Part shown: positions 580 to 41,719 of the stretch, in pieces
Layout: every line of letters starts with the position of its first letter
Numbering within the stretch: position 1 is the first letter of the stretch
Source of the DNA: an uncultured Prevotellaceae bacterium
GTDB taxonomy: Bacteria > Bacteroidota > Bacteroidia > Bacteroidales > Muribaculaceae
Direction of reading: 5' to 3'
DNA: 64,000 bases
Assembly (NCBI GenBank): GCA_900318335.1
Contig: ONKF01000015.1
Coordinates: 1 to 64,000, forward strand
Program-made: the position numbers and the translations under genes
The notes under the pieces: model-generated
Seen by the model: the letters and a program-made list of their open reading frames with translations, nothing else
Databases searched by the model: none
What the model was told of the DNA's origin: nothing

Positions 580-2487
580 GTGAAAATACTTTCTATTAAC
601 GACCTCAATAACTTGAGGAAGCGTGCGCAACAAGCTTTGGCGCTGCGCGAGGAAAGTTCTGACCAATCGTCAGAGCAGTGTTGTGGTCTTGCAACAGGAG
701 CCGAGCACCTGCAAGTGCTGTGCTGCGGTGGTACTGGTTGCAAGGCTTCAAACAGCCACAAAATCGTAGATAACCTGAATGCTTGTCTTGAGGAGAATGG
801 CATTGCCGACAAGGTGGATGTCATTACCACGGGTTGCTTCGGTTTCTGCGAGAAGGGTCCCATCGTGAAGATTATCCCCGACAACACCTTCTACACCCAG
901 GTGAAGCCCGAGGATGCTGCCGAAATCGTTAAGGAACACATCATTGGTGGCCGTCGCGTTGAGCGTCTGCTCTATGTTGACCCCAAGACCAACAAGACGG
1001 TGAGCGACAGCAAGCACATGGACTTCTATCGTAAGCAGATGCGTATCGCTCTGCGTAACTGCGGTCTCATTGATCCCGAGAACATTGAGGAATACATTGC
1101 CCGTGACGGTTATCAGGGTATCGCCAACGCGCTCCTCAACCAGACCCCCGAAGAGGTGATTGATATCATCAAGGCCTCAGGTCTGCGTGGCCGTGGTGGC
1201 GCTGGATTCCCCACCGGTATGAAGTGGGGCTTTGCCCGTGGCTATGACGCTGACGAGAAGTATGTGGTTTGTAACGCTGACGAGGGTGACCCCGGTGCAT
1301 TCATGGACCGCTCCATCATGGAGGGTGACCCCAACTCGGTGATTGAGGCAATGACCGTCTGCGGTTACTGCATCAACTCCCACAAGGGTCTGATTTACAT
1401 CCGCGCTGAGTATCCCTTGGCTGTTCACCGCCTGAAGGTCGCTATCCAGCAGGCTCGTGAATATGGCTTGCTCGGCAAGAGAATCCTGGGCACCGACTTC
1501 GACTTTGATATCGAAATCCGCTACGGTGCTGGCGCATTCGTTTGCGGTGAGGAGACTGCCCTTATCCACTCGATGGAGGGTAAGCGTGGTGAGCCCACCT
1601 TGAAGCCTCCCTTCCCCGCCGAGGCTGGTTATAACATGAAGCCCACCAACGTGAACAACGTTGAGACCCTGGCTAACGTGCCCATCATCCTGACCAAGGG
1701 CGCTGACTGGTTTGCCTCGATCGGCACCGAGAAGAGCAAGGGCACCAAGGTGTTCGCACTGGCTGGTAAGATTAATAATGTGGGCCTTATCGAGGTTCCC
1801 ATGGGTACTACCCTGCGTGAGATCATCTATGACATCGGTGGTGGCGTGAAGAATGGTAAGGAATTCAAGGCTGTTCAGACTGGTGGCCCCTCGGGTGGCT
1901 GCTTGACTCAGAAGCACCTGGATACCCCAATCGACTATGAGCACCTCGCCGCATCTGGCTCAATGATGGGCTCGGGTGGTATGATCGTTATGGACGAGGA
2001 TGACTGTATGGTCAGCGTGGCCAAGTTCTATCTTGAGTTCACTTGTGACGAGAGCTGCGGTAAGTGTACTCCCTGCCGCATCGGCAACAAGCGCATGCTC
2101 GAGATTCTTACCCGCATCACCGAGGGCAAGGGCACTATGGAAGACCTTGACCGCCTCAAAGAGCTGGGTGAGATCATTAAGGATACCGCCCTGTGCGGTC
2201 TGGGCCAGACCTCTCCCAATCCTGTGTTATCGACTATCAACAACTTCTGGGACGAATATGTGGAGCACGTGAAACAGCACACTTGCCGCGCTAAGCAGTG
2301 TAAGGCTCTCGTGACCTATAGCATTGAAGCCTCCAAGTGTAAGGGTTGTGGCGCCTGCGCTCGCAAGTGCCCCGCCAACGCCATCATGGGCGACATTCGC
2401 AAACCTCACATTATTAACCCGTTCGAGTGCATCCGCTGCGGTATGTGTAAGTCTAATTGCCGCTTCGACGCCATCTCGGTTTATTAA
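580..2487 (+). CDS. hydB: HydB, NADH/flavin subunit of trimeric electron-bifurcating [FeFe]-hydrogenase (NuoF-like)
   Basis: Flavin- and NAD(H)-binding subunit of a HydABC-type cytoplasmic hydrogenase, which in characterised relatives couples NADH and reduced ferredoxin oxidation to H2 formation. The 635 residues hold: a thioredoxin-like [2Fe-2S] domain (about 45-120; Cys pattern LCCGGTGC and TGCFGFC); the NuoF core with the FMN/NADH glycine motif GRGGAGFPTGMKW near 204; an SLBB region; the [4Fe-4S] motif SCGKCTPCRIG near 495; and a C-terminal two-cluster ferredoxin (KCKGCGACARKCP and CIRCGMCKSNC). The GTG start at 580 is chosen because an in-frame TAA lies just upstream and no ATG precedes the conserved region. 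hydA follows after about 15-45 bp. Length and domain order match HydB family members. Confidence 0.93.
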   Translation: MKILSINDLNNLRKRAQQALALREESSDQSSEQCCGLATGAEHLQVLCCGGTGCKASNSHKIVDNLNACLEENGIADKVDVITTGCFGFCEKGPIVKIIPDNTFYTQVKPEDAAEIVKEHIIGGRRVERLLYVDPKTNKTVSDSKHMDFYRKQMRIALRNCGLIDPENIEEYIARDGYQGIANALLNQTPEEVIDIIKASGLRGRGGAGFPTGMKWGFARGYDADEKYVVCNADEGDPGAFMDRSIMEGDPNSVIEAMTVCGYCINSHKGLIYIRAEYPLAVHRLKVAIQQAREYGLLGKRILGTDFDFDIEIRYGAGAFVCGEETALIHSMEGKRGEPTLKPPFPAEAGYNMKPTNVNNVETLANVPIILTKGADWFASIGTEKSKGTKVFALAGKINNVGLIEVPMGTTLREIIYDIGGGVKNGKEFKAVQTGGPSGGCLTQKHLDTPIDYEHLAASGSMMGSGGMIVMDEDDCMVSVAKFYLEFTCDESCGKCTPCRIGNKRMLEILTRITEGKGTMEDLDRLKELGEIIKDTALCGLGQTSPNPVLSTINNFWDEYVEHVKQHTCRAKQCKALVTYSIEASKCKGCGACARKCPANAIMGDIRKPHIINPFECIRCGMCKSNCRFDAISVY

Positions 2488-2533: not shown

Positions 2534-4237
2534 ATGCTGCTCGATGCCGCCAAGACCGTCGGCATCAGCATTCCCACCCTGTGCCACATTGATCTGGAGG
2601 GCACCTGTGTACAGAACATGCCCGCCTCGTGCCGCATTTGTGTAGTGGAGATCGAAGGCCGTCGCAACCTGGCTCCCGCCTGCGCAACCCGCGTGACTCC
2701 GGGTATGGTGGTTCACACCAACAGCGCCCGCGTCATCCGCGCCCGTAAGACCGTTGCCGAGCTCATGCTTAGCGACCATCCCAACGATTGCTTGACCTGC
2801 CCCAAGTGCAGTGACTGCGAGCTGCAGCGCCTGGTAATGCGCTTCAACATCCGCCAGATGCCGTATAACGGTGGCGAGCAGAGCGAGCGCAAGCAGGAGT
2901 TGACTCCCGCCATTTCCCGCAACATGGAGAAGTGTGTTTACTGCCGCCGTTGCGAGAGCGTCTGCAACAACGTTCAGTCGGTAGGTGTATTGAGCGCTAT
3001 CCGCCGTGGTTTCAACACCACCATCGCTCCCACCTTTGACAAGATGTTCACCGACACCAACTGTACCTACTGCGGTCAGTGTGTTGCTGTATGTCCCACC
3101 GGCGCTCTTACCGAGCATGACTATACCAACCAGCTCATGGACGACCTCACCAACCCCGACAAGGTGGTTGTGGCTCAGCCCGCTCCCGCCGTGCGCTTCG
3201 CACTGGGCGAGGAATTCGGCATGCCCGCTGGTACTATCGTTACCGGCAAGATGGCAACAGCTCTTCGCGACCTCGGATTTGACTATGCATTTGACACCGA
3301 CTTCGCTGCCGACCTTACCATCATGGAGGAGGGCACCGAAATCCTGCAGCGCCTCAACAAGTTCCTTGCTGGCGATAAGGACGTGAAGTTGCCGATTATG
3401 ACTTCGTGCTGCCCCGCTTGGGTTAACTTCTATGAGCACGAGTTCCCCGATCTGCTTGACTATCCTTCAACAGCTAAGTCGCCCGCTCAGATGTTTGGCG
3501 CCATTGCCAAGACCTACTGGGCCGAGAAGATGGGTATCCCCCGCGAGAAACTCGTGGTCGTTTCCATCATGCCTTGCTTGGCTAAGAAGTATGAGGCTGG
3601 CCGTGAGGAATTTAAGGTGGATGGCAATCCCGACGTGGATTACAGCATCTCAACCCGCGAGTTGGGTCGCTTGATCAAGCGCGCCAACATCGACTTTGCC
3701 AACCTGCCCGAGAGTGACTTTGACTCGCCCCTCGGTGAATCGACCGGTGCTGGTGTCATCTTCGGCATCACTGGTGGTGTGATGGAGGCTGCATTGCGTA
3801 CCGTCTATGAGGTACACACCGGCAAGACCCTGCCTCACCTCGAGTTCAACGAAGTGCGTGGTTTCGAGGGCATCAAGGAGGCTACCATCGACCTCAATGG
3901 CTTCGAACTGAAGGTCTGCGTGGCTCACACCCTGAGCAACGCCCGCAAGGTGATGAACGCCCTGCGTGCAGGCAAGCTCAACTATCATGTGGTTGAGGTA
4001 ATGGCATGTCCCGGTGGTTGCATCGGTGGTGCCGGTCAGCCTTACCACCATGGCAACATCGAGATTCTCAAGGCACGTGCTGCTGCCGTTTATCGTGAAG
4101 ACGAGGGCAAGGCATTGCGCAAGAGCCATGAGAACCCCGATATCCAGAAGCTTTACAAGGAATTCCTGGGTGAACCCTGTGGCGAGAAGTCTCACCACCT
4201 GCTTCACACGCATTACTTTGATAAGTCTATTCACTAA
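2534..4237 (+). CDS. hydA: HydA, catalytic subunit of trimeric [FeFe]-hydrogenase; 5' end disrupted
   Basis: Catalytic H-cluster subunit of the HydABC complex. From the ATG at 2534 (567 aa) it has a NuoG-like [2Fe-2S] domain (Cys 17/25/33/36/50), a His-Cys3 [4Fe-4S] site (HPNDCLTCPKCSDC, 82-95), a two-cluster ferredoxin (CVYCRRC near 134, CTYCGQC near 177) and the H-cluster domain. All three H-cluster motifs are present: TSCCPAW near 290, MPCLAKKYE near 345 and VMACPGGCIGGAGQP near the C-terminus. The start is odd. An ATG at 2502, in another frame, encodes MEEKNM, which looks like a normal HydA N-terminus. The conserved frame then resumes at about 2522 (PAGTMLLDAAK) without the first beta-hairpin of the ferredoxin fold. 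Either a deletion of 3n+1 bases occurred or a shortened protein starts at 2534. All cluster ligands survive. Confidence 0.85.
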   Translation: MLLDAAKTVGISIPTLCHIDLEGTCVQNMPASCRICVVEIEGRRNLAPACATRVTPGMVVHTNSARVIRARKTVAELMLSDHPNDCLTCPKCSDCELQRLVMRFNIRQMPYNGGEQSERKQELTPAISRNMEKCVYCRRCESVCNNVQSVGVLSAIRRGFNTTIAPTFDKMFTDTNCTYCGQCVAVCPTGALTEHDYTNQLMDDLTNPDKVVVAQPAPAVRFALGEEFGMPAGTIVTGKMATALRDLGFDYAFDTDFAADLTIMEEGTEILQRLNKFLAGDKDVKLPIMTSCCPAWVNFYEHEFPDLLDYPSTAKSPAQMFGAIAKTYWAEKMGIPREKLVVVSIMPCLAKKYEAGREEFKVDGNPDVDYSISTRELGRLIKRANIDFANLPESDFDSPLGESTGAGVIFGITGGVMEAALRTVYEVHTGKTLPHLEFNEVRGFEGIKEATIDLNGFELKVCVAHTLSNARKVMNALRAGKLNYHVVEVMACPGGCIGGAGQPYHHGNIEILKARAAAVYREDEGKALRKSHENPDIQKLYKEFLGEPCGEKSHHLLHTHYFDKSIH

Positions 4238-4263: not shown

Positions 4264-4758
4264 ATGAAGAAGAAAGAAGAAATCAAACTGGCGTGTACCG
4301 TTGTTCAACAGGTTGAAGAAATCTGCGATAAGCACGGCAATAAGCCCGGTGAACTGATTAACGTCCTGCATGAGTGCCAGGCTTTGCACGGTTATCTCCC
4401 TGAGGAGATGCAGCGCATCATCGCACGCAAGCTGGGTGTGCCCGCTTCTAAGGTGTATGGCGTGGTGACGTTCTACTCGTTCTTCACCATGACTCCTAAG
4501 GGCAAGCACCCGATTTCGGTCTGCCTGGGTACCGCTTGCTACGTGCGCGGTTCTGAGCGTCTGCTCGAGGAGATCAAGCGCATCTTGGGCATCGAGGTAG
4601 GTGAGACTACCCCCGATGGCAAGTTCTCGCTTGACTGCCTGCGTTGCGTGGGTGCCTGTGGTCTTGCTCCCGTTGTCATGATTGGTGAGCACGTCTATGG
4701 CCGTCTCGACGTCAAGGACGTTCGCCAGATCCTCGAGAACGCCGCTGCAAACGATTAA
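4264..4758 (+). CDS. hydC: HydC, NuoE-like [2Fe-2S] subunit of trimeric [FeFe]-hydrogenase
   Basis: A 164-residue thioredoxin-fold [2Fe-2S] protein of the NuoE/HydC family. It passes electrons between the flavin subunit HydB and the rest of the complex. The ligands fit the family pattern: Cys87-x4-Cys92 (CLGTAC) and Cys128-x3-Cys132 (CVGAC). The helical N-terminal region with LHGYLPEE is also typical. It lies 26 bp after hydA on the same strand and ends the operon, since a strong hairpin follows at 4784. In the Thermotoga model operon hydC comes first; here it is last. Length is normal and no residues are missing. Confidence 0.92.
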   Translation: MKKKEEIKLACTVVQQVEEICDKHGNKPGELINVLHECQALHGYLPEEMQRIIARKLGVPASKVYGVVTFYSFFTMTPKGKHPISVCLGTACYVRGSERLLEEIKRILGIEVGETTPDGKFSLDCLRCVGACGLAPVVMIGEHVYGRLDVKDVRQILENAAAND

Positions 4759-4783
4759 TCATTTGAAACATCACTAATCGCAT

Positions 4784-4822
4784 GAGCAGGATGTCCCCTC
4801 GAGGGCATCCTGCTCATTCTGT
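4784..4822 (+). terminator. Rho-independent terminator after hydC
   Basis: Arms 4784-4797 and 4803-4815 (GAGCAGGATG pairing with CATCCTGCTC, plus CCC/GGG around one bulged T), followed by a T-rich stretch. It separates the hydBAC operon from the next hydrogenase gene. Confidence 0.8.
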
Positions 4823-4862: not shown

Positions 4863-4893
4863 TTGCAAATATGTCAAAAAAAATGTAATTTTG
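4863..4893 (+). promoter_or_regulatory. Bacteroidota promoter of the second hydrogenase gene
   Basis: TTG at 4863-4865, a 20 bp spacer and TAATTTTG at 4886-4893 match the Bacteroidota -33/-7 consensus (TTTG, 19-21 bp, TAnnTTTG). Transcription would start near 4900 and give a leader of about 60 nt. Independent expression from hydBAC is therefore likely. Confidence 0.65.
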
Positions 4894-4958: not shown

Positions 4959-6785
4959 ATGGATACGCAACACAACGAGGCATCAAAACAGAACATCAAC
5001 AGTACACCCACGGGTGGAGCTCCCAAACACGAGGACCCATCGGAACAGACCTATGGATTGATAGGCAATAGCCATATCCAGGTCTTGTGCTGTTGCGGGT
5101 CGGCCTGCTATAGCTCCGGTAGCCTGAAAATCATTGACAACTTTATCCGTGTGATTGCCGAATACGGATTGGGTAGCCGTGTGGATGTCGTGGCAACGGG
5201 TTGCTTCGGTTTCTGTGCTAAGGGACCCATTGTCAGAATCATGCCCGACAATACGACCTATGTCCAGGTTCACCCCGAGGATGTGGAGGATATCGTCAAG
5301 ACCCACATTATCGATGGCCGCTTGCTCGAACGGCTGCAATATGTCGACTTCACGGCCCACCAGCTGATGGACGACTCCAAGCACTGGAGTTCCTATCCCA
5401 AGCAGCTGTCGATGGACGCCATGTTGCACGATTACATCTATGAGATTGGCGGCAAGAAGTTCTTGTCGGTGATGTCCTACAAGATTGATGCTGACAAGTG
5501 CAAGGGTTGTGGTGCCTGCAAACGCGGTTGTCCCAGCAATGCTATTGTGGGTGACTTGCGTCATCCCCATCTGGTCAATCCCTATAAATGTACATGCTGC
5601 GGCCATTGCACGACCAAGTGCAAGTTTGACGCTATCCATGGTCCCGTCGGTGCGCTCAGTGAGCGCAACTATGTCGAGGACCTGCTGGTCGATGTGGCTG
5701 ATCCCGACAAGATCGTTGTGGCTCAGACGGCACCAGCCGTGCGCTATGCTCTGGGCGAGGAATTCGGCATGCCTCCCGGCACGATTGTCACGGGCAAGAT
5801 GATTACTGCGCTGCGCAAGGTGGGTGTGGACTATGTGTTTGATACCGACTTCGGTGCCGACATCACAATTATGGAAGAGGCCGCCGAGATTGTTGACCGC
5901 CTGCGCAAATTCATTGCCGGAGACAAGACAGTACGTATTCCCATTACTACCTCGTGCTGCCCAGCATGGGTCAACTTCTTTGAGAACGATTATCCCGACC
6001 TGAGAGAATATCCCTCGACATGCAAGTCGCCGGCCCAAATGCTGGGAGCGGTCATCAAGGACTATTGGGCTCAGCGCATGGGCATTCCTCGTGATAAACT
6101 GGTGATGGTATCGGTGATGCCTTGCTTGTCCAAGAAATATGAATGTGCCCGCGATGAGTTTATCACCGACGGCAATCCTGATGTGGACTATTCTATCACA
6201 ACAATCGAATTGGCGGGTCTCATCAAGCGCATGAATATCGACTTCAACCGCTTGAGGGATACCGAGTTTGATTCTCCAATGGGTGATTCATCGGGCGCTG
6301 GAGCGATTTTTGGCACTACCGGCGGTGTGATGGAGGCGGCATTGCGAACTGTCTATGAGGAATTTACGGGACAGGAGTTGTCTCACGTCGAGTTTGAGCA
6401 AGTGCGTGGCCTGGACGGTATTCATGAGGCCGTAATAGACCTCAACGGTTTTGAATTGAAGGTCTGCGTGGTCAATACTTTGGCCAACGCACGCATCGTT
6501 ATGGACAAACTGCGTGCCGGTGAACTGGATTACCATGTGATTGAGGTGATGGCTTGTCCTGGTGGTTGTATCGGTGGCACTGGTCAGCCTTATCACCATG
6601 GTGACATCGAGGTCATCAAGGCACGTCAACGCGCTATCTATAGCGAAGATGTAGGAAAGAAGTTACGCAAGAGCCACGAGAATCCGGTCATCCAACGACT
6701 GTATCACGAATTCTTGGGTAAACCCTTGCAGGGAAAGGCTCACGAGATTCTTCACACCAAGTACCGCGACAAGTCTATCCTGTAA
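4959..6785 (+). CDS. Single-chain [FeFe]-hydrogenase with N-terminal thioredoxin-like [2Fe-2S] domain (HydB/HydA mosaic)
   Basis: This 608-residue protein has, in order: a polar N-terminal extension (1-35); a thioredoxin-like [2Fe-2S] domain (LCCCGSAC at 43-50, GCFGFC at 81-86); a two-cluster ferredoxin (CKGCGACKRGC at 181-191, CTCCGHCTTKC at 211-221); and a complete H-cluster domain (TSCCPAW near 330, MPCLSKKYE, VMACPGGCIGGTGQP). The first two modules match the N- and C-terminal modules of HydB at 580-2487, and the last matches HydA at 2534-4237. The FMN/NADH core and SLBB region are absent, so it cannot use NADH itself. The intact motifs suggest real H2 chemistry, with electrons probably entering through ferredoxin or an unknown partner docking on the [2Fe-2S] domain; a redox-sensing role is also possible. 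It has its own promoter and faces hydF, 39 bp away. Confidence 0.88.
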   Translation: MDTQHNEASKQNINSTPTGGAPKHEDPSEQTYGLIGNSHIQVLCCCGSACYSSGSLKIIDNFIRVIAEYGLGSRVDVVATGCFGFCAKGPIVRIMPDNTTYVQVHPEDVEDIVKTHIIDGRLLERLQYVDFTAHQLMDDSKHWSSYPKQLSMDAMLHDYIYEIGGKKFLSVMSYKIDADKCKGCGACKRGCPSNAIVGDLRHPHLVNPYKCTCCGHCTTKCKFDAIHGPVGALSERNYVEDLLVDVADPDKIVVAQTAPAVRYALGEEFGMPPGTIVTGKMITALRKVGVDYVFDTDFGADITIMEEAAEIVDRLRKFIAGDKTVRIPITTSCCPAWVNFFENDYPDLREYPSTCKSPAQMLGAVIKDYWAQRMGIPRDKLVMVSVMPCLSKKYECARDEFITDGNPDVDYSITTIELAGLIKRMNIDFNRLRDTEFDSPMGDSSGAGAIFGTTGGVMEAALRTVYEEFTGQELSHVEFEQVRGLDGIHEAVIDLNGFELKVCVVNTLANARIVMDKLRAGELDYHVIEVMACPGGCIGGTGQPYHHGDIEVIKARQRAIYSEDVGKKLRKSHENPVIQRLYHEFLGKPLQGKAHEILHTKYRDKSIL

Positions 6786-6824: not shown

Positions 6825-8027
6825 TCAGGGAAGCGATACCTTCCCCAGGATGCCCTTGATGTGGGCGATAGTGATGCCGTAATTGGTCATCGGCACACCT
6901 TGACGGCGGCAATGCTCCACGCGCTGGAGCATGAAACGGCGGTTGAACATGCAACCACCACAATGGATGACCAGGTCATAGCCCGTCACGTCGTCGGGGA
7001 AATCTTTACCAGCCACAATATCCACCGTTAATTCTTGTCCCACACGCTGCCGTAACATACGGGGGATTTTCTCGCGTCCTATATCCTCGGCAAGTGGTGC
7101 GTGTGTGCAGGCTTCTGCAATAAGCACTCTGGACTCGGCGGTGAGATGGTCAATGGCCGAAGCACTCTCGACAAAGTAGTTGATGTCACCCTTGTGGGCA
7201 GCCATCAAGACTGAAAATGACGTGAGCTTGCTATCGGCTGGCGTTTTCTGAGCCACGATGTCAAACACCTGGGAGTCGGTAATGATGAGTCGTGGCGGTT
7301 CGCGCAGTGCTGCCAATGTTTTATCTATGTCTTCGGTCGTGCAGCAAACTGCGATGCAGCCTTTGTCCATCAAGTCACGCAAGGTCTGTACCTGTGGCAG
7401 GATAAGTCGCCCCTTGGGCGCCTGTGGATCTTGCGGCATGACCAGTAGCACGGTGTCGCCAGCATGAGCGAGGTTACCGGTGAGCGAATGATTGCCGCTT
7501 TCGGGCATTAGGCCGGCCAGGGTTTTCCTCAGCAGATCGAGTCCTGTTCCGTTTATGGCGCTCACGGGGATCACATCACAACCCAGCCGCTTGGCAATGT
7601 CAGCGAGTAGGGTAGAGGGGACTTCTTGAATCAGGTCCACTTTATTTAATACGGCAACATAGGGGGTATTGGCCTGCTTGAGTAATCCTGCCCATGCAGC
7701 CTCGTCGTCGAGTGAGTCACCGTCGGTGACAAGGATGGCGATGTCGGCTTGTTTGATCACTTCACGGGTTCGTTCGGTACGCAGGTCACCCACAAGCCCA
7801 GTGTCATCAAAGCCTGCCGTGTCGATCAACACGCATGGCCCCAGCGGCAGGATTTCCATCGACTTGCTCACAGGGTCGGTCGTGGTCCCTGCCACATCGC
7901 TCACGATGGCTATCTGTTGCCCAGTGAGCGCATTGATGAGCGAAGACTTCCCCACATTGCGCCTTCCAAATAACGCGATGTGCAACCGCTCACTCTGCGG
8001 AGTCCTGTTAAAACTTTGATCTACCAT
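6825..8027 (-). CDS. hydF: [FeFe]-hydrogenase H-cluster maturation GTPase HydF
   Basis: HydF is the scaffold GTPase on which the 2Fe subcluster is assembled before transfer to apo-hydrogenase. The 400 residues show a Ras-like GTPase domain with the G1 loop GRRNVGKSS (21-29), G3 DTAGFDD and G4 NKVD, then a dimerisation region. The C-terminal iron-sulfur domain has the diagnostic pattern Cys307-x-His309 ... His355-Cys356-x2-Cys359 (HCGGC). Its length is normal. It is convergent with the second hydrogenase and follows hydG on the same strand after 105 bp containing a large AT-rich inverted repeat. Together with HydG and HydE (elsewhere in the window) the maturation set is complete. Confidence 0.95.
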   Translation of the reverse strand: MVDQSFNRTPQSERLHIALFGRRNVGKSSLINALTGQQIAIVSDVAGTTTDPVSKSMEILPLGPCVLIDTAGFDDTGLVGDLRTERTREVIKQADIAILVTDGDSLDDEAAWAGLLKQANTPYVAVLNKVDLIQEVPSTLLADIAKRLGCDVIPVSAINGTGLDLLRKTLAGLMPESGNHSLTGNLAHAGDTVLLVMPQDPQAPKGRLILPQVQTLRDLMDKGCIAVCCTTEDIDKTLAALREPPRLIITDSQVFDIVAQKTPADSKLTSFSVLMAAHKGDINYFVESASAIDHLTAESRVLIAEACTHAPLAEDIGREKIPRMLRQRVGQELTVDIVAGKDFPDDVTGYDLVIHCGGCMFNRRFMLQRVEHCRRQGVPMTNYGITIAHIKGILGKVSLP

Positions 8028-8132: not shown

Positions 8133-9548
8133 TTAGAAGTAGAAGTCGCGCTTGCCGGCAGCGATTTCCTCAATGTGCTGGGCGGCGATTTCGCGAACGC
8201 GCTGATTGGATATCTTGCCCAACTCCTGCTGGATGAGGGCGTTGCCTTTTGCAATAGTGTCCTCGCTGGCGAAATCCATGAGATACTCCTTGAGTGTCAT
8301 CAAGGCATTAGGCGTGCAGATGTCACCAATCTTGCCGGCCTTACACAGTTCCATGAAACGGTCGCCCGTGCGTCCCGAACGGTAACATGCCGTGCAGAAG
8401 CTGGGAAGGTAGCCGATTGACAGCAGCCAGTTGATGACTTCATCAAGCGTACGCGTGTCGCTCACGTCAAATTGTGCCGTCTCGTCATGGCGTTCAACTG
8501 TGGTGTAGCCACCCACACTGGTGCGGCTGCCACCACTGATCTGTGACACACCCAGGTCGAGCACCTTGGCGCGAACGCTCTGGCTCTCACGGGTCGAGAT
8601 GATCATGCCGGTGTAGGGAACAGCCAAGCGGATTACAGCGATAATGCGGCAGAAGATGTCATCGGGTAACACATCGGGGAACTCGTCGAGTGAAATGTCC
8701 TCGGCAGGGCAGATGCGGGGCACACTGATGGTGTGAGGTCCCACGCCAAATCGAGCCTCCAAGTGCTCGGCGTGCATCAACAGACCGACGAAGTCGTAGC
8801 GGTAGGTAGTCAGGCCGTAAAGTACACCGATACCCACGTCATCGCAGCCACCCAGTTGGGCGCGGTCCATGGCCTCGGTGTGGTAGCAATAGTTGCTCTT
8901 GGGACCCGTCGGGTGCAAAGCCTCGTAGTTCTTGCGGTTATAGGTTTCCTGGAACAGGATATAGGTGCCGATGCCGGCAGCTTTGAGCTTTTCATAGGCC
9001 TCGACCTCGGTAGCGGCGATATTGACGTTCAGGCGACGGATTTCACCGTTACCCACCTTAGTATTATAAATAGTATGGATGGACTCCAGGATGTACTCGA
9101 GCGGGTTCATCACGGGGTGCTCACCAGCCTCAAGGGCGATGCGCTTGTGCCCCATCTTGACCAGGGCTTCGACTTCGGCACGGATCTCGTCCTGTGACAA
9201 TTTCTTGCGGGGAATGGTCTTATTCTTAGCATGATACGGGCAATAGACACATCCGTTGATGCAGTAATTGGACAGGTAAAGCGGTGCGAACATCACGATG
9301 CGGTTGCCGTAGAAGCGACGCTTCACGTCTTTGGCCAGTTGCTCGTAGCGTTCAATCAGGTCGGGCTGGTCACAGTCGAGCAGCACGGCTGCCTCACGGT
9401 GGGTCAGACCCTTGCACAGGGCTGCCTTGTCGATAATCTCCTCGATGAGGGCACGGTTGCTCTTGTTGCTCTCGGCATAGGCTAAGGTTTCTTTTATCTC
9501 ACTGTCGTCGATAAACTCATCGGCATGATTTGACTTGACGTTATACAT
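8133..9548 (-). CDS. hydG: [FeFe]-hydrogenase maturase HydG (radical SAM tyrosine lyase)
   Basis: HydG cleaves tyrosine to supply the CO and cyanide ligands of the H-cluster. The 471 residues carry the radical-SAM cluster motif Cys96-x3-Cys100-x2-Cys103 (CINGCVYC). The C-terminal second cluster motif starts CTACYRSGRTGDRFMELC, the CX2C pattern that binds the auxiliary [5Fe-4S] cluster. Length and both ends match the family. The gene is the first of a hydG-hydF minus-strand unit and is divergent from the LptD-like gene, with a likely -7 element at 9610-9617. Related radical-SAM families such as ThiH lack the second cluster motif, so the call is firm. Confidence 0.96.
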   Translation of the reverse strand: MYNVKSNHADEFIDDSEIKETLAYAESNKSNRALIEEIIDKAALCKGLTHREAAVLLDCDQPDLIERYEQLAKDVKRRFYGNRIVMFAPLYLSNYCINGCVYCPYHAKNKTIPRKKLSQDEIRAEVEALVKMGHKRIALEAGEHPVMNPLEYILESIHTIYNTKVGNGEIRRLNVNIAATEVEAYEKLKAAGIGTYILFQETYNRKNYEALHPTGPKSNYCYHTEAMDRAQLGGCDDVGIGVLYGLTTYRYDFVGLLMHAEHLEARFGVGPHTISVPRICPAEDISLDEFPDVLPDDIFCRIIAVIRLAVPYTGMIISTRESQSVRAKVLDLGVSQISGGSRTSVGGYTTVERHDETAQFDVSDTRTLDEVINWLLSIGYLPSFCTACYRSGRTGDRFMELCKAGKIGDICTPNALMTLKEYLMDFASEDTIAKGNALIQQELGKISNQRVREIAAQHIEEIAAGKRDFYF

Positions 9549-9617: not shown

Positions 9618-9844
9618 CTTCTTTTTTAGGGAAAAGTAAATAATGAATCGTTAATTGTTGTTAGACCTTGTGCTATATTTTCTGATGGATGTCGATGGTT
9701 TTGAGGGCAACTGGCATTCACACTGGACGCGTCTGGTGTTCACGTGTGCGAGGCTGTGGTGCTAAATTAAGATAATAAAACAAAAAATGGCACAAAACTT
9801 GTCAATAATGCCATGCTGATTGCACGGGAGTGTTGATTTTTCCG

Positions 9845-9852
9845 TAATTTTG
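9845..9852 (+). promoter_or_regulatory. -7 promoter element for the LptD-like gene
   Basis: TAATTTTG, with a TTG at 9820-9822 (22 bp spacing, slightly long). The GTG start lies only 18 bp downstream, so the leader would be very short. Confidence 0.45.
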
Positions 9853-9870: not shown

Positions 9871-12603
9871 GTGACGACAAGAAGTCTCCATATAATCTCT
9901 ATCCTGGTAACTGCCGTGTTGCTGTTGCCCGCCTTGTCATGGGGCAGGTCGGGAACTCCTCAACAGAGCGTTAACACTTTACCGCCTCCTGTGACCGTCG
10001 AGGGGGATACCGTGCGTGACACGCTCAGCGCCCCCATGCTGCCGCCTCGAGACACCAGCCGCTTCGTCCTCGAGCAGGTGGACTTGGATCATGTGGTGGA
10101 ATTCACAGCCAAGGACAGTATCATCCTGATTGGGCGCAACCGTGCGGTGATGTACGGCGGGAGCAAAATCCTGTATGGCGACATCGACGTGAGCGCATCC
10201 CAAATCAGCATGGATATGGACAGTAGTCAGGTGCATGCTATCGGCGTGCCTGACAGTGTGGGCGAATTGATTGGAAATCCTGTGTTCAAGGATAATAGCG
10301 GCGAATATGAGTCACGCGTGATGAAATACAACTTCAAGACCAAGCGCGGCTATATCACCGACATCGTTACCGAACAGGGCGAAGGTTATCTGACTGGCGG
10401 TGTGACCAAGAAGACCGAGGACGATTACTATTACATCAAGGACGGACGTTACACGACCTGTGACAACCACGAGCACCCGCACTTCTACTTCCAGCTCACT
10501 AAAGCCAAGGTAAAACCCAAGAAAAACGTGGTGACAGGACCCGCTTACATGGTGCTGGAGGACCTGCCGCTGCCCATTGCGGTGCCTTTTGGCTACTTCC
10601 CGTTCAGTGAAAAGTACCAGAGCGGTATTCTGGTGCCCACCTTCGGCGAAGACTATAACCGTGGTTTCTACCTGCGCAATGGTGGCTATTACCTCGCTCT
10701 GGGCCAATATGCCGACCTGGCCCTCACGGGTGAGATTTACTCGCGCGGCTCGTGGGGCTTATCGGCACAGTCGTCCTATGCCAAACGCTACAAGTACTCT
10801 GGCTCGTTCAGTGTCAACTACCTGACGACGATAACGGGATTGAAAGGCGACCCGGACTATAATAAAATGCATAACTTCCAGGTGCTGTGGAGCCATTCCC
10901 AGAACCAGAAGGCTAATCCCTACCTGACGTTCTCGGCCAGTGTGAACTTTGCGACGACGGGTTATGCCCGTAACAGCTTGAACACCTATTACACCAACGC
11001 CTTTACCGAGAACACCAAGAGCAGTTCGGTCAACCTGACTTATAAGGTTCCCAACAGCAAGTGGTCGTTCTCGACGACGGCCAATGTGTCGCAGCGAACT
11101 GCCGACTCGACCATCACGGTCTCGTTCCCCAACCTGACCATCACCATGAGCCAGACCGCCCCGTTCAAGCGCAAGCGCGCAGTGGGCGATGAGCGCTGGT
11201 ATGAGAAAATCAAGGTGAGCTATACAGGCCGTTTCCAGAACTCATTGACGGCTAAGCAGGACGAGTTCCTACATAAGTCCCTGGTCAAAGACTGGCGTAA
11301 TGGCATGAGTCACTCGGTGCCCATCCAGGCGACCTTCAACATGTTTAAGTACTTCAACATCACGCCTACCATTACGCTTAACGACCGCATGTATACCAGC
11401 AAGATACGCCAGCAGTGGGACCCCAATGCCAGCGCTGTGGTGCGGGACACGAGCTATAGTTTCTATAATGTGTTTGACTTCAGCTTCGCTGTTTCGCTCA
11501 GTACCAAGGTCTATGGTTTCTTTAAGCCGATGAAGTTCCTGGGTAAGTTGAGTGAAAAACTGCAGATGGTGCGTCACGTGATGACCCCCAACATCTCGTT
11601 CTCGGCTTCACCCGACTTCGGGTCGCCCTTCTGGGGATACTATGGCAATTACGAGTATGTTGATAAGGCGGGAGTTCACCGTCGCCAGCACTATAGTTAT
11701 TTCCAGCATGGTCTCTACGGCGGCGCGCCCGACGGAAAGTCGGGAACAATCTCGTTCAACATCTCTAACAACCTGGAAGCCAAGGTCAAGAGCGATAACG
11801 ACAGCACGGGATTCAAGAAAATCTCGCTGATCGAGAACCTCACTCTGAGCCAGTCTTGTAACCTCGCTGCCGACTCGATGAAGTGGAGTAACCTGAACAC
11901 GAGTATCATGCTGCGCCTGACCAAGGGCTTTAACCTGAACTTGAGTGCCACATGGGATGTTTATAAATATGCCCTCAATGAGTCGGGCACCCCAGTGAGA
12001 ATCAATAAGTTGCGCCTGTTTAACGGTGGCGGATGGGGTAGGTTGTCGAGCACGGGAACCTCTTTCTCCTACACGTTCAACAACGATACCTTCAAGCGCA
12101 AGCGCGATAAGGATAATAACAAGAACAACGAGCCACCTAAGCCAAAAGGTGAGCTTGACCGGAACAACACGACAGAGGAGGGCGCTGAACAGGAAGGTAC
12201 TGGCCCGACGACCGACTTGGAGCTGATTGACGGCTATGCCAAGTGGGACTGCCCGTGGAGCCTAACGGTCAATTACTCCCTGTCATACGGTTACGGCTCG
12301 TTCAATTACGACAAGCTGGAATATAACGGCCGCTGGACACAGAACTTGAGCCTGAATGCCAGAATACAACCGACCAAGAACTGGTCGTTTACGGCATCGG
12401 CCAGTTACAACTTCGATACGCACAAGATCGCCTACATGAACTGTAGCATCTCTCGCCAGATGCACTGCTTCGAGATGAGTGCCAGCTTTGTTCCTGTGGG
12501 ACCCTACAAGAGCTATAACTTCCACATCGCTGTCAAGTCGTCCATCCTCCAGGATGTGAAGTATGACAAGCACTCGAGTTTCAATAATGGCGTTACCTGG
12601 TAA
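9871..12603 (+). CDS. LptD/OstA-like outer-membrane LPS-assembly protein
   Basis: A 910-residue outer-membrane beta-barrel protein that starts with GTG and a signal peptide (hydrophobic 7-24). An N-terminal OstA-type jellyroll-like region follows (about 70-200; for example KILYGDIDVSASQISMDMDS). The rest is a long barrel with alternating aromatic strands ending in the Phe/Trp-rich C-terminus expected of barrel proteins (last residue Trp). It resembles the large putative LptD proteins of Bacteroidota, which insert lipopolysaccharide into the outer leaflet. A Lys/Glu/Asn-rich polar stretch near 750-790 is probably a surface loop or insertion. The next gene overlaps its end by 17 bp. The family assignment rests on fold pattern and N-terminal repeats; a more general barrel is possible. 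Confidence 0.7.
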   Translation: MTTRSLHIISILVTAVLLLPALSWGRSGTPQQSVNTLPPPVTVEGDTVRDTLSAPMLPPRDTSRFVLEQVDLDHVVEFTAKDSIILIGRNRAVMYGGSKILYGDIDVSASQISMDMDSSQVHAIGVPDSVGELIGNPVFKDNSGEYESRVMKYNFKTKRGYITDIVTEQGEGYLTGGVTKKTEDDYYYIKDGRYTTCDNHEHPHFYFQLTKAKVKPKKNVVTGPAYMVLEDLPLPIAVPFGYFPFSEKYQSGILVPTFGEDYNRGFYLRNGGYYLALGQYADLALTGEIYSRGSWGLSAQSSYAKRYKYSGSFSVNYLTTITGLKGDPDYNKMHNFQVLWSHSQNQKANPYLTFSASVNFATTGYARNSLNTYYTNAFTENTKSSSVNLTYKVPNSKWSFSTTANVSQRTADSTITVSFPNLTITMSQTAPFKRKRAVGDERWYEKIKVSYTGRFQNSLTAKQDEFLHKSLVKDWRNGMSHSVPIQATFNMFKYFNITPTITLNDRMYTSKIRQQWDPNASAVVRDTSYSFYNVFDFSFAVSLSTKVYGFFKPMKFLGKLSEKLQMVRHVMTPNISFSASPDFGSPFWGYYGNYEYVDKAGVHRRQHYSYFQHGLYGGAPDGKSGTISFNISNNLEAKVKSDNDSTGFKKISLIENLTLSQSCNLAADSMKWSNLNTSIMLRLTKGFNLNLSATWDVYKYALNESGTPVRINKLRLFNGGGWGRLSSTGTSFSYTFNNDTFKRKRDKDNNKNNEPPKPKGELDRNNTTEEGAEQEGTGPTTDLELIDGYAKWDCPWSLTVNYSLSYGYGSFNYDKLEYNGRWTQNLSLNARIQPTKNWSFTASASYNFDTHKIAYMNCSISRQMHCFEMSASFVPVGPYKSYNFHIAVKSSILQDVKYDKHSSFNNGVTW

Positions 12604-14139: not shown

Positions 14140-15195
14140 TTAGTATTTCCTGACTTCGATTTCGCCATTGAGGACAGCTGCGGCATTCTCTGCCAGAGCC
14201 GACATCTCGTCCTCGCCGGGATATACGTGAACGGGAGCCATCCAGTCGACGCGCTTCTTGAGCTCATCAACCATATAGTTCCAGTAGGCGATACCGCCAG
14301 TGATGATGATGGCGTCAATCTTGCCGCACAGCACGGCGCCCTTCTCGGCGATAGCCTTGGCGATATGGTAAATCATCGCATTGATGACGAGCTTGGCGTG
14401 CTCATCACCATTGTTCATCATCTTCTCGGCCTCAATCATGTCGGTCGTGCCCAGGTGTGAGAATACACCACCCTTGCCAGAGATCATCTTGAGGATCTCA
14501 TCCTTGGTATACTCGCCGCTGAAGCACAGGTTAATCAGGTCGCGTGCGGGCAGGCTACCAGCGCGTTCGGGTGAGAACGGGCCCTCACCGTCCAGAGCGT
14601 TGTTCACGTCAACAGCGCGGCCATGATCGTGGGCTGCTACCGAGATGCCGCCACCCAGATGGGCAACAATGAGGTTCAGGTCCTCGTAACGCTTGCCATT
14701 CTCCTTGGCAAAGCGGCGGGCAATGGCGCGCTGGTTCAGGGCGTGCCAGATGCTCTCGCGCTTGAACATTGCCAATCCGCAGACGCGGGCATAATCGTTC
14801 AATTCGTCGGTTACGACGGGGTCGGCTATGTAGCAGGGGCAACCCAGTCCCTTGGCAATCTCATTGGCAATCACGCAACCCAGGTCGCATGCGTGCTGAT
14901 GCTCGCTGGCATAGGTTGCCTGGATCATGTTCTCGTCAACTGCATACACACCACCGGGCAACGGCTTGGTCAAACTGCCACGAGCGACGATGGCATCAAA
15001 CTTAACGGGGATGCCGGCTTTCTCCAGCTCGTTCAGAATCATCTGGCGGCGGAAGTCAAACTGGTCGGTAATCTTGGCATAGGGTGCCAACTCCTCGGCA
15101 GAATGACGGATGACTTTAATCAAACGGGGTTCGCCGTTCTCGACAACGGCCATCTTGGTGGATGTGGATCCAGGATTGATGACTAAGATAATCAT
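14140..15195 (-). CDS. buk: Butyrate kinase
   Basis: A 351-residue ASKHA-fold acyl kinase. It converts acyl-phosphate (butyryl-, possibly isobutyryl-phosphate) and ADP to the acid and ATP. Visible hallmarks are the N-terminal phosphate loop INPGSTSTKMAV, the central LNLIVAHLGGGISVAAHDHGR segment of the acetate/butyrate kinase family, and IITGGIAYWNY near the C-terminus. Length fits Buk rather than the roughly 400-residue acetate kinase. It follows the phosphate butyryltransferase gene by 58 bp on the same strand, so the pair makes a Ptb-Buk substrate-level phosphorylation unit. Confidence 0.95.
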   Translation of the reverse strand: MIILVINPGSTSTKMAVVENGEPRLIKVIRHSAEELAPYAKITDQFDFRRQMILNELEKAGIPVKFDAIVARGSLTKPLPGGVYAVDENMIQATYASEHQHACDLGCVIANEIAKGLGCPCYIADPVVTDELNDYARVCGLAMFKRESIWHALNQRAIARRFAKENGKRYEDLNLIVAHLGGGISVAAHDHGRAVDVNNALDGEGPFSPERAGSLPARDLINLCFSGEYTKDEILKMISGKGGVFSHLGTTDMIEAEKMMNNGDEHAKLVINAMIYHIAKAIAEKGAVLCGKIDAIIITGGIAYWNYMVDELKKRVDWMAPVHVYPGEDEMSALAENAAAVLNGEIEVRKY

Positions 15196-15253
15196 TATTA
15201 GATAGTTTGTGGTTAAAGTTTAAAGTGATAGTTAAATAACTAAAGCCTGATAT

Positions 15254-16165
15254 TTACTCGGCTGCCATGGTGGCTACAGCAAGGCTGTAGAATTTGGACT
15301 GGCTGCTGTCGGCACGCGAGGGAACGACGGCGGGGCACTTGGCGCCTAACAACAGGCCTGCGGTGCTTGCTCCGGCAAACAGGGTGATGGCCTTGTAGAA
15401 GACGTTACCGGCCTCGATGTCGGGCATGATGAGCACGTCACTGTCGCCCTGCAGGGGAGAAGTGAGGCCCTTTGCCTCCATGGCGTGCATGCTACATGCG
15501 CACTTGGCGTCCAGGGGACCATCAACGATGCACTTGCCCAGCTCGCCCTTGTTGGCCATATCGATGATTACAGGATAATCCTCGGTGAAGGGGAAGTGCT
15601 TGCCATTGACCTTCTCGGTGCAGTGGATGAGTGCAACCTTGGGCACCTCAATGCCGAAGTTGCGTGCCACGTTGGACATATATTTCACCATCTCGATGCG
15701 CTGTGCTTGGTTGGGATAGGGGATAACGGCGGCATCGGTGAAAATCAACAACTTATGGTAGCTGGGGATGTCAGCCACGGCGGCGTGGGTCAGCACGTTG
15801 CCCTTGGGCAGAATGCCGGTCTCCTTGTTGAGGACAGCACGCAGCAGGTTGTCGGTGTTGATCAGACCTTTCATCAGCACGTCGGCTTTGTCCTCACGCA
15901 CCAGGGCAACAGCCTTGGCGGCGGCATCGTCGGCGTCACTGGCGTCCACAAAACTCATGTTGGCGGCAAAGGGCTTCAGTGCCTCATTGGCCTTAAGCTT
16001 TTCTTCACAGCCCACAAAGACGGCCTCGATGAAGCCAGCCTCGAGTGCCATAGCGCATGCGGCGGGAGTCTTCTCGTCGGCAGCCCACACTACGGCCACG
16101 CGTTTTTTAACATTGTTTTCTTTGAGATGAGCAAGCAGCTCATCAAAATTCTTAATGGTATTCAT
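15254..16165 (-). CDS. ptb: Phosphate butyryltransferase (phosphate acetyl/butyryltransferase family)
   Basis: A 303-residue member of the phosphate acetyl/butyryltransferase family. It exchanges CoA of butyryl-CoA for phosphate and feeds butyrate kinase downstream. Features are the N-terminal VKKRVAVVWAADEKT strand, ADVLMKGLINTDNLLRAVLN, the TDAAVIPYPN segment and the C-terminal VLIMPDIEAGNVFYKAITLFAG motif typical of Ptb. Pta is usually longer or fused. The minus-strand element at 16207-16214 is a plausible promoter for ptb-buk. Database entries sometimes label close relatives as enoyl-CoA hydratase/phosphate acetyltransferase, but no hydratase domain is present here. Confidence 0.92.
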   Translation of the reverse strand: MNTIKNFDELLAHLKENNVKKRVAVVWAADEKTPAACAMALEAGFIEAVFVGCEEKLKANEALKPFAANMSFVDASDADDAAAKAVALVREDKADVLMKGLINTDNLLRAVLNKETGILPKGNVLTHAAVADIPSYHKLLIFTDAAVIPYPNQAQRIEMVKYMSNVARNFGIEVPKVALIHCTEKVNGKHFPFTEDYPVIIDMANKGELGKCIVDGPLDAKCACSMHAMEAKGLTSPLQGDSDVLIMPDIEAGNVFYKAITLFAGASTAGLLLGAKCPAVVPSRADSSQSKFYSLAVATMAAE

Positions 16166-40682: not shown

Positions 40683-41719
40683 GTGGGGGAATCTCCTCGC
40701 GACCAGTCGATGTGGTATCCAATGAGAGAAAGCTCGTCGGCAAGTTCTTTCACACCCTGCGCCGACTCGGCACCCAGTGATGCCTTGTTGTCATATAGGG
40801 AATAGAGTTTGCGGGTATCAGTCGGTGAAAGGTTGGGCATGACAACATTGGCTCCAGCCAGGATGCCGCGCAACCGACCATCGGGCGCAAGAGTGGCCAT
40901 GGCTGTTGTGCTGGGAATCAAGGCTTGTGGGATAGCCAGCCTCATGATTGCATACAACCTTGCGGTCATGTCGACCGAACCTGCCGGGAAACGTCCTAAT
41001 GGGGTGTCATGTTGGGGGACAAACGGACCGAGACCTATCATGTGTGGCTTAAAAGCAGTTAGATACTGGATGTCTTCGACAATGCTGCCTATGGTTTGGA
41101 ATGGCGATCCCACCATAATGCCCGTTCCCACTTGGTAACCCAAGTCCTTGAGCCAATCAAGACACTGCAAGCGATGTGCATGTGACATCCCTCGAGGATG
41201 AAGCAGGCCGTAAAGGCGTTCGTTACGGGTTTCATGGCGCAGCAGGTAGCGGTTGGCTCCTGCTTCTCGCCACAGGGCGTAGGTCTCCCGCGGGTGTTCG
41301 CCAAGTGATAAGGTAATGGCACAATCGGGCCAATGTCGCCTGATGTCCCGAATCACGTCAGCAATCCACTGCGACCGTTTCTCATCCCATTCGCCGCCCT
41401 GGATCACAAAGGTGCGGAAACCAATTCTGTAGCCTTGCTCACAGCAAGCAATTACCTGCTCATGAGTGAGTGTATAGCGGGACACATGGCTATTGCTGGA
41501 GCGAATACCGCAATACAGGCAATCATTCCGGCAGACGTTAGAAATCTCAATGAGACCACGCAGGTAAATTCCTTTACCGAAATTCTCCTGCGCCACTTCA
41601 CGGGCTTGGCTCAGCAAGTATTCTACATCTTGTGGATTGCGCGTAAGAAGCAACGCCCGATACTCATCGGATGCCAACTCGTGCTTTTCCCTGAGTTTGT
41701 CAACAAGACATCTCATCAT
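40670..41719 (-). CDS. hydE: [FeFe]-hydrogenase maturase HydE (radical SAM)
   Basis: 349-residue radical-SAM enzyme that works with HydG and HydF in building the 2Fe subcluster. The cluster motif Cys63-x3-Cys67-x2-Cys70 (CRNDCLYCGIR) and the strings GIYLRGLIEISN, SLGEHPRETY and MVGSPFQT match HydE. PylB and BioB are related, but the GIRSSN context and the full Hyd set in the window favour HydE. Its ATG overlaps the stop of the transglutaminase gene (ATGA, 41716-41719), so it is translated with that gene and from its promoter, 31 kb from hydF/hydG. The 3' end runs into the trxA terminator. Confidence 0.9.
   Translation of the reverse strand: MMRCLVDKLREKHELASDEYRALLLTRNPQDVEYLLSQAREVAQENFGKGIYLRGLIEISNVCRNDCLYCGIRSSNSHVSRYTLTHEQVIACCEQGYRIGFRTFVIQGGEWDEKRSQWIADVIRDIRRHWPDCAITLSLGEHPRETYALWREAGANRYLLRHETRNERLYGLLHPRGMSHAHRLQCLDWLKDLGYQVGTGIMVGSPFQTIGSIVEDIQYLTAFKPHMIGLGPFVPQHDTPLGRFPAGSVDMTARLYAIMRLAIPQALIPSTTAMATLAPDGRLRGILAGANVVMPNLSPTDTRKLYSLYDNKASLGAESAQGVKELADELSLIGYHIDWSRGDSPTKKE

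Follow-up and report, generated by a model that had tools for sequence, protein, structure and literature searches.

The 64,000-nucleotide stretch analysed here (hereafter the window; contig ONKF01000015.1, positions 1–64,000, GenBank assembly GCA_900318335.1, an uncultured Prevotellaceae bacterium) carries three genes of a bifurcating-type [FeFe]-hydrogenase, hydB, hydA and hydC, followed on the same forward strand by an open reading frame (ORF) at 4959–6785 to which we gave the working name hydX. The product, HydX, is a 608-residue single-chain [FeFe]-hydrogenase in which a thioredoxin-like (TRX) [2Fe-2S] domain, a linker, a ferredoxin-type domain with two [4Fe-4S] sites (Fd domain), an H-cluster domain (H-domain) and a small-subunit (SSU) domain follow one another, based on the ORF, Pfam matches and a 26-row family alignment (A1).

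Module composition and class of HydX

The TRX domain (5067–5303, forward strand; HydX residues 37–115) matched the Pfam family 2Fe-2S_thioredx (PF01257; E 1.9e-5, 25.0 bits against a cut-off of 24.8) as well as the N-terminus of HydB, from which it appears to derive, and its likely cluster ligands, assigned by motif (C45, C50, C82 and C86), were unvarying across the 26 rows of A1. The Fd domain (5478–5636, forward strand; residues 174–226), recognised by Fer4 (174–196) and Fer4_10 (175–221), seems to come from the HydB C-terminus and stands in place of the F-domain of HydA. The H-domain (residues 251–540; Fe_hyd_lg_C, E 9.7e-93) and SSU domain (551–605; Fe_hyd_SSU, E 4.8e-25), together at 5709–6773 on the forward strand, are attributed to HydA on the basis of Pfam, TIGR02512, a phylogenetic tree and the predicted fold. 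Complex1_51K, NADH_4Fe-4S and SLBB were all absent from HydX at E 0.001 in Pfam, and all three were detected in the adjacent HydB (SLBB there at 24.4 bits, below its cut-off of 27). The original prediction, made from the letters of the window, had described this set of modules in one 608-residue chain devoid of a flavin mononucleotide (FMN)/NADH core, and the ORF and Pfam data confirm both the set and the missing core.

HydX belongs with the group A enzymes according to the NCBIfam model TIGR02512 (467.9 bits against a cut-off of 405.95), and the TSCCP, MPCxxKKxE and CPGGCxGG motifs are all present. It scored below the cut-off of the NADH-dependent group A6 HydA model NF040763 (585.7 bits against 765), which the adjacent HydA exceeded (864.8 bits), and Pfam detected in HydX neither Fer2_4 nor NADH-G_4Fe-4S_3, both of which occur in HydA. 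The group B model TIGR04105 was likewise not reached (172.4 bits against 450). Nor did HydX resemble the sensory enzymes of groups C and D, as Pfam detected neither a PAS or kinase domain nor a four-Cys domain at the C-terminus, the SSU domain ends the chain at residue 605 of 608, and the active-site Cys is kept.

Putative origin from the hydB and hydA families

Comparison by blastp within the window divided HydX between its two neighbours: residues 25–152 matched HydB 28–156 (53% identity, E 1e-39), residues 166–226 matched HydB 572–632 (56% identity, E 4e-22), and residues 177–607 matched HydA 130–566 (63% identity). The gene hydB (580–2487, forward strand), which encodes the FMN/NADH subunit of the bifurcating-type hydrogenase, would represent the donor family of the N-terminal half of HydX according to Pfam and the tree, and hydA (2534–4237, forward strand), encoding the catalytic subunit with an N-terminus shortened in this assembly, that of the H-domain according to NF040763 and the tree. 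The order of TRX, Fd and H parts in HydX is also the order in which these parts lie along hydB–hydA. DNA identity over the locally aligned parts was 69, 64 and 71% for the three matches, implying old copies of HydB and HydA and not fresh duplicates; a recent local duplication was thereby ruled out as the source.

The linker may retain a trace of what lay between. Residues about 148–172 aligned to about 405–432 of HydB, an interval of its SLBB domain, with a score of 44, whereas the best of 500 shuffles reached 32. When three HydX proteins were each paired with three of HydB, all nine alignments fell at the same place, and 0–3 of 300 shuffles did equally well. The putative SLBB remnant itself, SMDAMLHDYIYEIGG(K), spans residues 150–165 (5406–5453, forward strand). 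As just about 16–28 residues of SLBB are left, HydX differs from the M2c/CbA5H type, in which an SLBB domain precedes the Fd domain. The HydB segment directly ahead of the Fd domain was considered as another source of the linker and rejected, with just KKFLSVMSYKIDADKCK aligned (score 42, shuffled maximum 36) and a better fit to SLBB. The Cys residues ahead of the Fd domain in HydB (CRAKQC) are missing from HydX. In solved relatives, a Zn ion holds the linker to the HydB C-terminal Fd domain, and its ligands in Thermotoga maritima are three Cys and one His (PMC9499530, PMC10482914). Given the absent CRAKQC Cys residues and this Zn-held linker, the Zn hinge has probably been lost from HydX. Taken together, the order of the parts, their matches and the SLBB remnant make HydX look like a hydB–hydA pair with stretches cut out, namely the FMN/NADH core, nearly all of SLBB and then the front of HydA.

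Phylogenies of the two halves were consistent with this. In the H-domain tree (62 rows), 22 HydX sequences formed one clade (support 100/99) within the HydA clade of the window's genus (99/97), with other Bacteroidales HydA outside the latter, and in the TRX+Fd tree (59 rows) the 22 HydX again formed one clade (100/99), within the genus HydB clade (99/92). In the former tree, HydX grouped with the HydA of locus L062 and of genomes G003 and G005 (97/93; HydA of L061 and L064 were placed elsewhere); in the latter, its companions were the HydB proteins of L061, L062 and L064 (96/91; HydB of G003 and G005 were not included). The parents would thus be the HydB and HydA of this genus, although the exact sister is unsure. 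The original prediction had regarded the gene as a locally born mosaic of the hydB and hydA next door and had proposed a phylogeny of the H-domain against HydA as a check. The position of HydX inside the genus HydA clade, together with the TRX+Fd tree, bears out the mosaic from the neighbours' families; its birth, however, appears to have occurred once in an ancestor of the genus and not in this genome. The sequences therefore point to a one-time collapse of hydB–hydA in the lineage of the window's genus.

Distribution and selection

HydX was sought in one genome per species using short exact HydX peptides as the query (a distant analogue could therefore be missed), and the best 80 of 168 matches were kept, giving 77 loci. 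HydX was present at 55 of the 77 (L035–L088 and L097), two of which (L082 and L086) are truncated where their contigs end; a weak 23% match at L096 was left out of all HydX counts. These copies are 62–95% identical to that of the window. Their records are labelled Muribaculaceae, Prevotellaceae, Porphyromonadaceae or Bacteroidales, a host is given for eight of the 55 and is a ruminant each time, and 32 of the 55 bear a RUG code. The surroundings are also widely shared: hydC lies upstream of hydX on the same strand at 45 of the 55 loci and hydF downstream on the opposite strand at 42, with >1 kb of upstream sequence available at 48 loci and >2 kb downstream at 53.

Within the window's family, strict thresholds recovered HydX from 51 of 397 genomes (E 1e-60; one of the 51, G1178, covers model positions 51–236 only), all in one of 30 genera, the window's own. 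The HydB core was found in 58 of the 397 genomes, in that same single genus (E 1e-80). HydX and HydB occurred together in 45 genomes, HydB alone in 13 and HydX alone in six, at least three of which (G024, G032 and G036) have hydX or hydA near a contig end. As an observation apart from HydX, the restriction of the HydB core to one of 30 genera suggests that, within the family sampled, this genus may have acquired the whole HydABC system or may alone have retained it.

For hydX relative to the window, the ratio of nonsynonymous to synonymous divergence (dN/dS) had a median of 0.044 across 28 near-clade comparisons; the far-clade median was 0.138, from the 17 of 25 comparisons in which it was computable, dS there being near saturation. 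This pattern indicates that hydX is under purifying selection and is a working gene. Medians are given for divergence data because a few of the hydA comparisons, at loci without hydA, may involve HydX. Median synonymous divergence (pS) against near relatives was lower for hydB, hydA and hydC (0.38–0.42) than for hydX, hydF and hydG (0.58–0.65), and the low values for hydBAC are as expected of highly expressed genes.

Active site and predicted fold

Residues were compared among 56 HydX, counting that of the window, 48 HydA from the same genus and 10 HydA from elsewhere. E307, E310, R314, C333, C334, S353, M387, C389, K392, M531, C533 and C537 were unvarying in all 56 HydX, and we take their roles as H-cluster ligands or members of the proton path from the CpI literature. 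The proton-path positions E307, E310, R314, S353 and C333, whose CpI counterparts are presumably E279, E282, R286, S319 and C299, were fixed in all three sets. Catalytic residues fixed in 56 of 56 sequences, together with a dN/dS of about 0.04, lend support to the earlier suggestion that HydX would be a second H2-active enzyme. Fixed changes specific to HydX include C355, T330, N343, R349 (Arg also occurs in one genus HydA) and T541. Among these, C355 is Ala in 48 of 48 genus HydA and Cys in one of the 10 other HydA, and lies two residues past the proton-path S353, just before a helix starting at residue 358 in the AF2 model. C396 was dismissed as a second HydX-specific Cys, as Cys occupies this position in 31 of the 48 genus HydA.

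The AF2 model of HydX, built from a 76-row alignment, had a mean pLDDT of 78.8 and a pTM of 0.70, with pLDDT <50 in residues 1–29, and replaced a model from 26 rows that was too poor (pLDDT 59.7). The best solved match by Foldseek was CbA5H (435 columns, root-mean-square deviation (rmsd) 2.5, 46% identity), and the Desulfovibrio enzyme DdH with linked subunits also matched over 435 columns (rmsd 2.3). Structure prediction, another check named in the original prediction, yields a modelled HydX that matches both folds. As 435 columns exceed the H-domain plus SSU (~355 residues), these matches very likely include the Fd domain in its canonical place, beside the H-domain as modelled.

Upstream region and neighbouring genes

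The hydX gene appears to have a promoter of its own. A Bacteroidota-type element, TTG-N20-TAATTTTG, lies at 4863–4893 on the forward strand; we take it to be the Bacteroidota −33/−7 promoter. It was present in 31 of 31 near-clade upstream regions (mean of 0.4 and maximum of 3 after single-base shuffling), supporting the separate promoter that had been proposed, and in eight of 23 far-clade upstream regions of 320 nt, so that only the near clade provides evidence of its conservation. A hairpin after hydC (4782–4817, forward strand; −28.6 kcal/mol, z −5.6, with none of 200 shuffles as stable) may act as a terminator between hydBAC and hydX, albeit with no T run 3′ of it; when the region was scanned for simple terminators and sigma-70 promoters, the sites obtained were no more than chance would give. 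The sequence GTAATTTTGT occurs twice in the window against 0.06 expected. A promoter-like TTG-N22-TAATTTTG was also noted at 9820–9852, directly ahead of an LptD_2 gene at 9871.

Between hydA and hydX lies hydC (4264–4758, forward strand), encoding a NuoE-like [2Fe-2S] subunit (PF01257, 1.9e-51). On the reverse strand, hydF (6825–8027; H-cluster maturation GTPase, TIGR03918, 541 bits) is convergent with hydX and is followed by hydG (8133–9548; H-cluster maturation radical SAM enzyme, TIGR03955, 845 bits); the third H-cluster maturase, hydE, is encoded elsewhere in the window (40691–41707, reverse strand; TIGR03956, 500.5 bits). All three scored above their NCBIfam cut-offs, and the window therefore encodes HydE, HydF and HydG together. 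At 2502–2540, hydA lacks 34 nt directly after the ATG used by relatives, where the MEEKNM... frame runs out; the in-frame start is then the ATG at 2534, and the plant-type [2Fe-2S] domain is without its first strands. The gap is either a true lesion or an assembly slip.

Beyond the hyd genes, the window's genome, a fragmented assembly of 70 contigs, contains a match to pyruvate:ferredoxin oxidoreductase (PFOR), and no RnfC exceeded its cut-off in this assembly, which is 92.9% complete and in which a missing Rnf is accordingly weak evidence. PFOR in the apparent absence of RnfC implies that a ferredoxin sink would be useful, although this is only suggestive. At 14140–16165 on the minus strand, an Acetokinase-family gene (PF00871) adjoins a PTA_PTB gene (PF01515), possibly encoding a butyrate kinase and a phosphotransbutyrylase, and genes similar to this pair adjoin hydX at another locus (L069).

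Comparison with known hydrogenases

The closest solved protein, CbA5H of Clostridium beijerinckii (SLBB-Fd-H), which we take to be Cbei_1773, shares with HydX a similar 2x[4Fe-4S] domain directly ahead of the H-domain in one chain. It differs in having a Zn-binding SLBB domain at the front, where HydX has a TRX [2Fe-2S] domain and an SLBB remnant, and its oxygen-loop residues are mostly unshared. The Desulfovibrio enzyme DdH, which is not known to have a [2Fe-2S] domain, has the electron path expected of HydX (two [4Fe-4S] clusters to the H-cluster), but is periplasmic and has a separate small subunit, whereas HydX is one chain. All modules recognised in HydX have homologous counterparts within HydB or HydA of the group A3 HydABC enzymes (T. 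maritima, Thermoanaerobacter kivui), from which HydX differs in being a single chain without the FMN core, NADH site, NADH_4Fe-4S, plant-type [2Fe-2S] and NuoG-type [4Fe-4S] domains. Cbei_1773 is classified as type M2c, cluster A5 (PMC8444407). The Nyctotherus hydrogenosomal hydrogenase is likewise a natural one-chain fusion of hydrogenase parts, but its NuoE and NuoF homologues are C-terminal and its NADH module is kept, whereas in HydX the HydB ends are N-terminal and the NADH module is lost (PMC4967309).

A TRX-like domain also shares a chain with the H-domain in the long HydA type, as in T. maritima, although there it is C-terminal. This arrangement was seen in nine of 20 Bacillota stretches (one of the nine weak, at 13 bits), where the corresponding H-domain ORFs (L215–L223) are about 650–740 residues long, several being cut by the stretch fetched. 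At 50 loci from a full HydX search of 50 hand-picked genomes among 398 Bacillota, none had TRX ahead of the H-domain. A TRX+Fd model (A2) was applied to genomes of three phyla, namely that of the window (395 genomes), that of Blautia G455 (398) and that of G457 (288): among the matches listed, the window alone matched the whole model in its own phylum, and none spanned it in the other two. One further genome of the window's phylum (G409) matched positions 3–169 with four internal stops. In the fetched stretches, TRX-bearing ORFs of at least 390 residues all contained an FMN core, except HydX. Five TRX-FMN proteins of 1,013–1,074 residues (L156, L157, L158, L179 and L184; genomes G613, G610, G715, G1255 and G1371) end in about 450 residues that match none of five domain models, and so look like HydB-type proteins fused to something else; ORFs of similar length occur in further genomes among the matches listed in the A2 scans of the three phyla.

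The order TRX, 2x[4Fe-4S], H-domain was not described in the portions of the open-access PMC literature searched, a body of text outside which the surveys of Meyer 2007 and Calusinska 2010 fall. Within that scope, HydX does not correspond to an already named and characterised class, the discovery of which the original prediction had named as a ground for refutation. Type M2b (Cbei_4000, cluster A2) is named without domain content in the portion of PMC8444407 consulted, and a formal name for this module order may exist in the defining surveys.

Proposed function and alternative explanations

In a solved HydABC relative, ferredoxin is considered most likely to dock on the HydB C-terminal domain, which carries clusters B3 and B4 (PMC8880783), and B3/B4 are regarded as the likely ferredoxin site elsewhere too (PMC10482914, PMC9499530). 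As HydX joins a port of this type to an H-domain and drops the flavin, we infer its electron donor, its direction, its lack of bifurcation and the role of its [2Fe-2S] domain, and assign a rough probability of 0.64 to HydX being a soluble, ferredoxin-dependent, non-bifurcating group A [FeFe]-hydrogenase. Under this proposal, a copy of the adjacent hydB–hydA pair would have collapsed to a single frame in one event, in an ancestor from which a single Bacteroidales genus descends. Deletions within hydB would have taken the FMN/NADH core, nearly all of SLBB and probably the Zn hinge, and an additional deletion and fusion the front half of hydA, thereby fixing the swinging ferredoxin-docking domain of HydB ahead of the H-domain, at the ordinary F-domain site. 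Reduced ferredoxin from PFOR would most likely donate to the two HydB-type [4Fe-4S] clusters, from which electrons would pass to the H-cluster and yield H2, with NADH not involved. The [2Fe-2S] domain may serve for docking, perhaps of HydC, may hold a cluster at which electrons enter or one off the main path, or may be no more than a relic.

Several observations sit uneasily with this proposal. A plain ferredoxin-driven hydrogenase would not need the [2Fe-2S] domain that has been kept, and in the proposal for T. maritima a HydB [2Fe-2S] cluster, B1, relays electrons, albeit B1 is not firmly equated with the N-domain cluster (PMC9499530). C355, invariant and beside an active-site helix, has no role in the proposed account. 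HydX diverges faster than HydA (median identity of the window to the far clade 63% vs 84%), so that its function may have drifted. The linker (residues 129–171) is poorly predicted, with pLDDT <50 in the AF2 model, and the loss of the Zn hinge rests on missing Cys residues in one alignment. The two trees share the nesting of HydX but not its exact sister, as L062 is common to both and L061 and L064 appear in the HydB tree only. Finally, the PFOR match is cut by a contig start in an assembly that is 92.9% complete.

The retained N-domain is central to two other explanations. HydX could be a physical partner of HydABC whose N-domain binds HydC, so that the complex would gain another H-cluster or an exit for ferredoxin alone. 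In a solved NiFe relative, the C-terminal domain of HydC is stabilised by the HydB N-domain (PMC8880783), the N-domain is kept at 53 of 55 HydX loci (contig ends truncate the remaining two), and HydX (51 genomes) and HydB (58) co-occur in 45. We nonetheless consider such a partnership unlikely, as hydX has its own promoter, the iron-sulphur domains at the HydA N-terminus are missing from HydX, HydB occurs without HydX in 13 genomes and HydX without HydB in six, HydX and HydA lie on separate contigs in one genome (G030), and one locus (L078) has no hydABC in the 7 kb fetched on each side of hydX. The route envisaged in the original prediction, with the electron partner docking on the [2Fe-2S] domain and electrons passing through the [4Fe-4S] clusters to the H-cluster, is kept as a rival because papers on the parent enzyme disagree on that cluster: the T. 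maritima proposal has the HydB [2Fe-2S] cluster B1 relaying electrons between HydC and B3/B4 (PMC9499530), whereas the N-terminal TRX-like cluster B5 is elsewhere described as a probable dead end, through which electron transfer is unlikely though possible (PMC8880783). The cluster ligands, unvarying in 26 rows, would suit such an entry point. All three of PMC10482914, PMC8880783 and PMC9499530, however, place ferredoxin itself on the [4Fe-4S] domain, and the N-terminal tail and first half of the linker are more variable than the domains in A1, making entry through the [2Fe-2S] domain quite improbable.

The suggestion, also raised originally, that HydX is an H2 or redox sensor reporting to regulators is very unlikely to hold. 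Its synonymous divergence, above that of hydBAC (median pS 0.65 vs about 0.4), fits modest expression, and sensory [FeFe]-hydrogenases also adjoin bifurcating operons (PMC3561251), but HydX has no PAS, kinase or four-Cys C-terminal domain in Pfam, passes the group A model TIGR02512 and invariably retains the active-site Cys that is reportedly missing from putative sensory enzymes (PMC8924675); a sensor is thus disfavoured. Equally hard to sustain is the view of HydX as a CbA5H-like enzyme, active in uptake or protected from oxygen. CbA5H is the nearest solved protein by sequence and fold, and H204, unvarying in A1, corresponds by a hand-counted match to H245 of CbA5H, a residue important to the stability of that enzyme towards oxygen (PMC13397568). 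The residue match is mixed, however: L364, A561 and C236 of CbA5H are T330, V527 and A195 in the window's HydX, P386 (P352) is the sole one kept of the loop residues named in that paper, and the same His occurs in the Fd domain of the adjacent HydB, so that H204 need not signal oxygen protection. Artefact or decay might be suspected given the fragmented assembly and the gap in the adjacent hydA. Recurrence at 55 of 77 loci and in 51 of 397 family genomes rules out an assembly chimera, which disposes of the hydB–hydA misassembly that the original prediction had listed as a possible refutation, and this recurrence, with 62–95% identity and a dN/dS of 0.044, leaves a decaying pseudogene with practically no credibility.

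Ferredoxin-driven H2 formation by HydX could also be combined with docking. A "de-bifurcated" HydX might dock through its HydB N-domain on HydC or HydABC, with the cell switching ferredoxin between coupled and uncoupled routes to H2. We hold this idea to be speculative and unlikely; if true, it would provide a switch between an NADH-plus-ferredoxin route and a ferredoxin-only route.

Implications

HydX is thus a genuine and conserved hydrogenase that was born within one lineage, and its modules follow an order unusual for the known enzyme family to which it belongs. What is most surprising is that its origin can be read in place; its function is probably ordinary ferredoxin-driven H2 chemistry. 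To our knowledge, the gain and loss of accessory modules in [FeFe]-hydrogenases have mostly been inferred from distant families. In the case of HydX, the parents adjoin it, the order of its parts is the operon order, part of a deleted domain can still be recognised, and the product has been retained in dozens of species. Because the HydB C-terminal [4Fe-4S] domain is here naturally wired straight to an H-domain, HydX offers a direct test of whether ferredoxin meets the bifurcating enzyme at that domain, as has been proposed. HydX could be misclassified in surveys where group A3 is counted from the H-domain alone, as its best curated match is an NADH-dependent model, below cut-off. Given that every HydX record with a named host (8 of 55) is from a ruminant, HydX may add an unrecognised source of H2 in the rumen.

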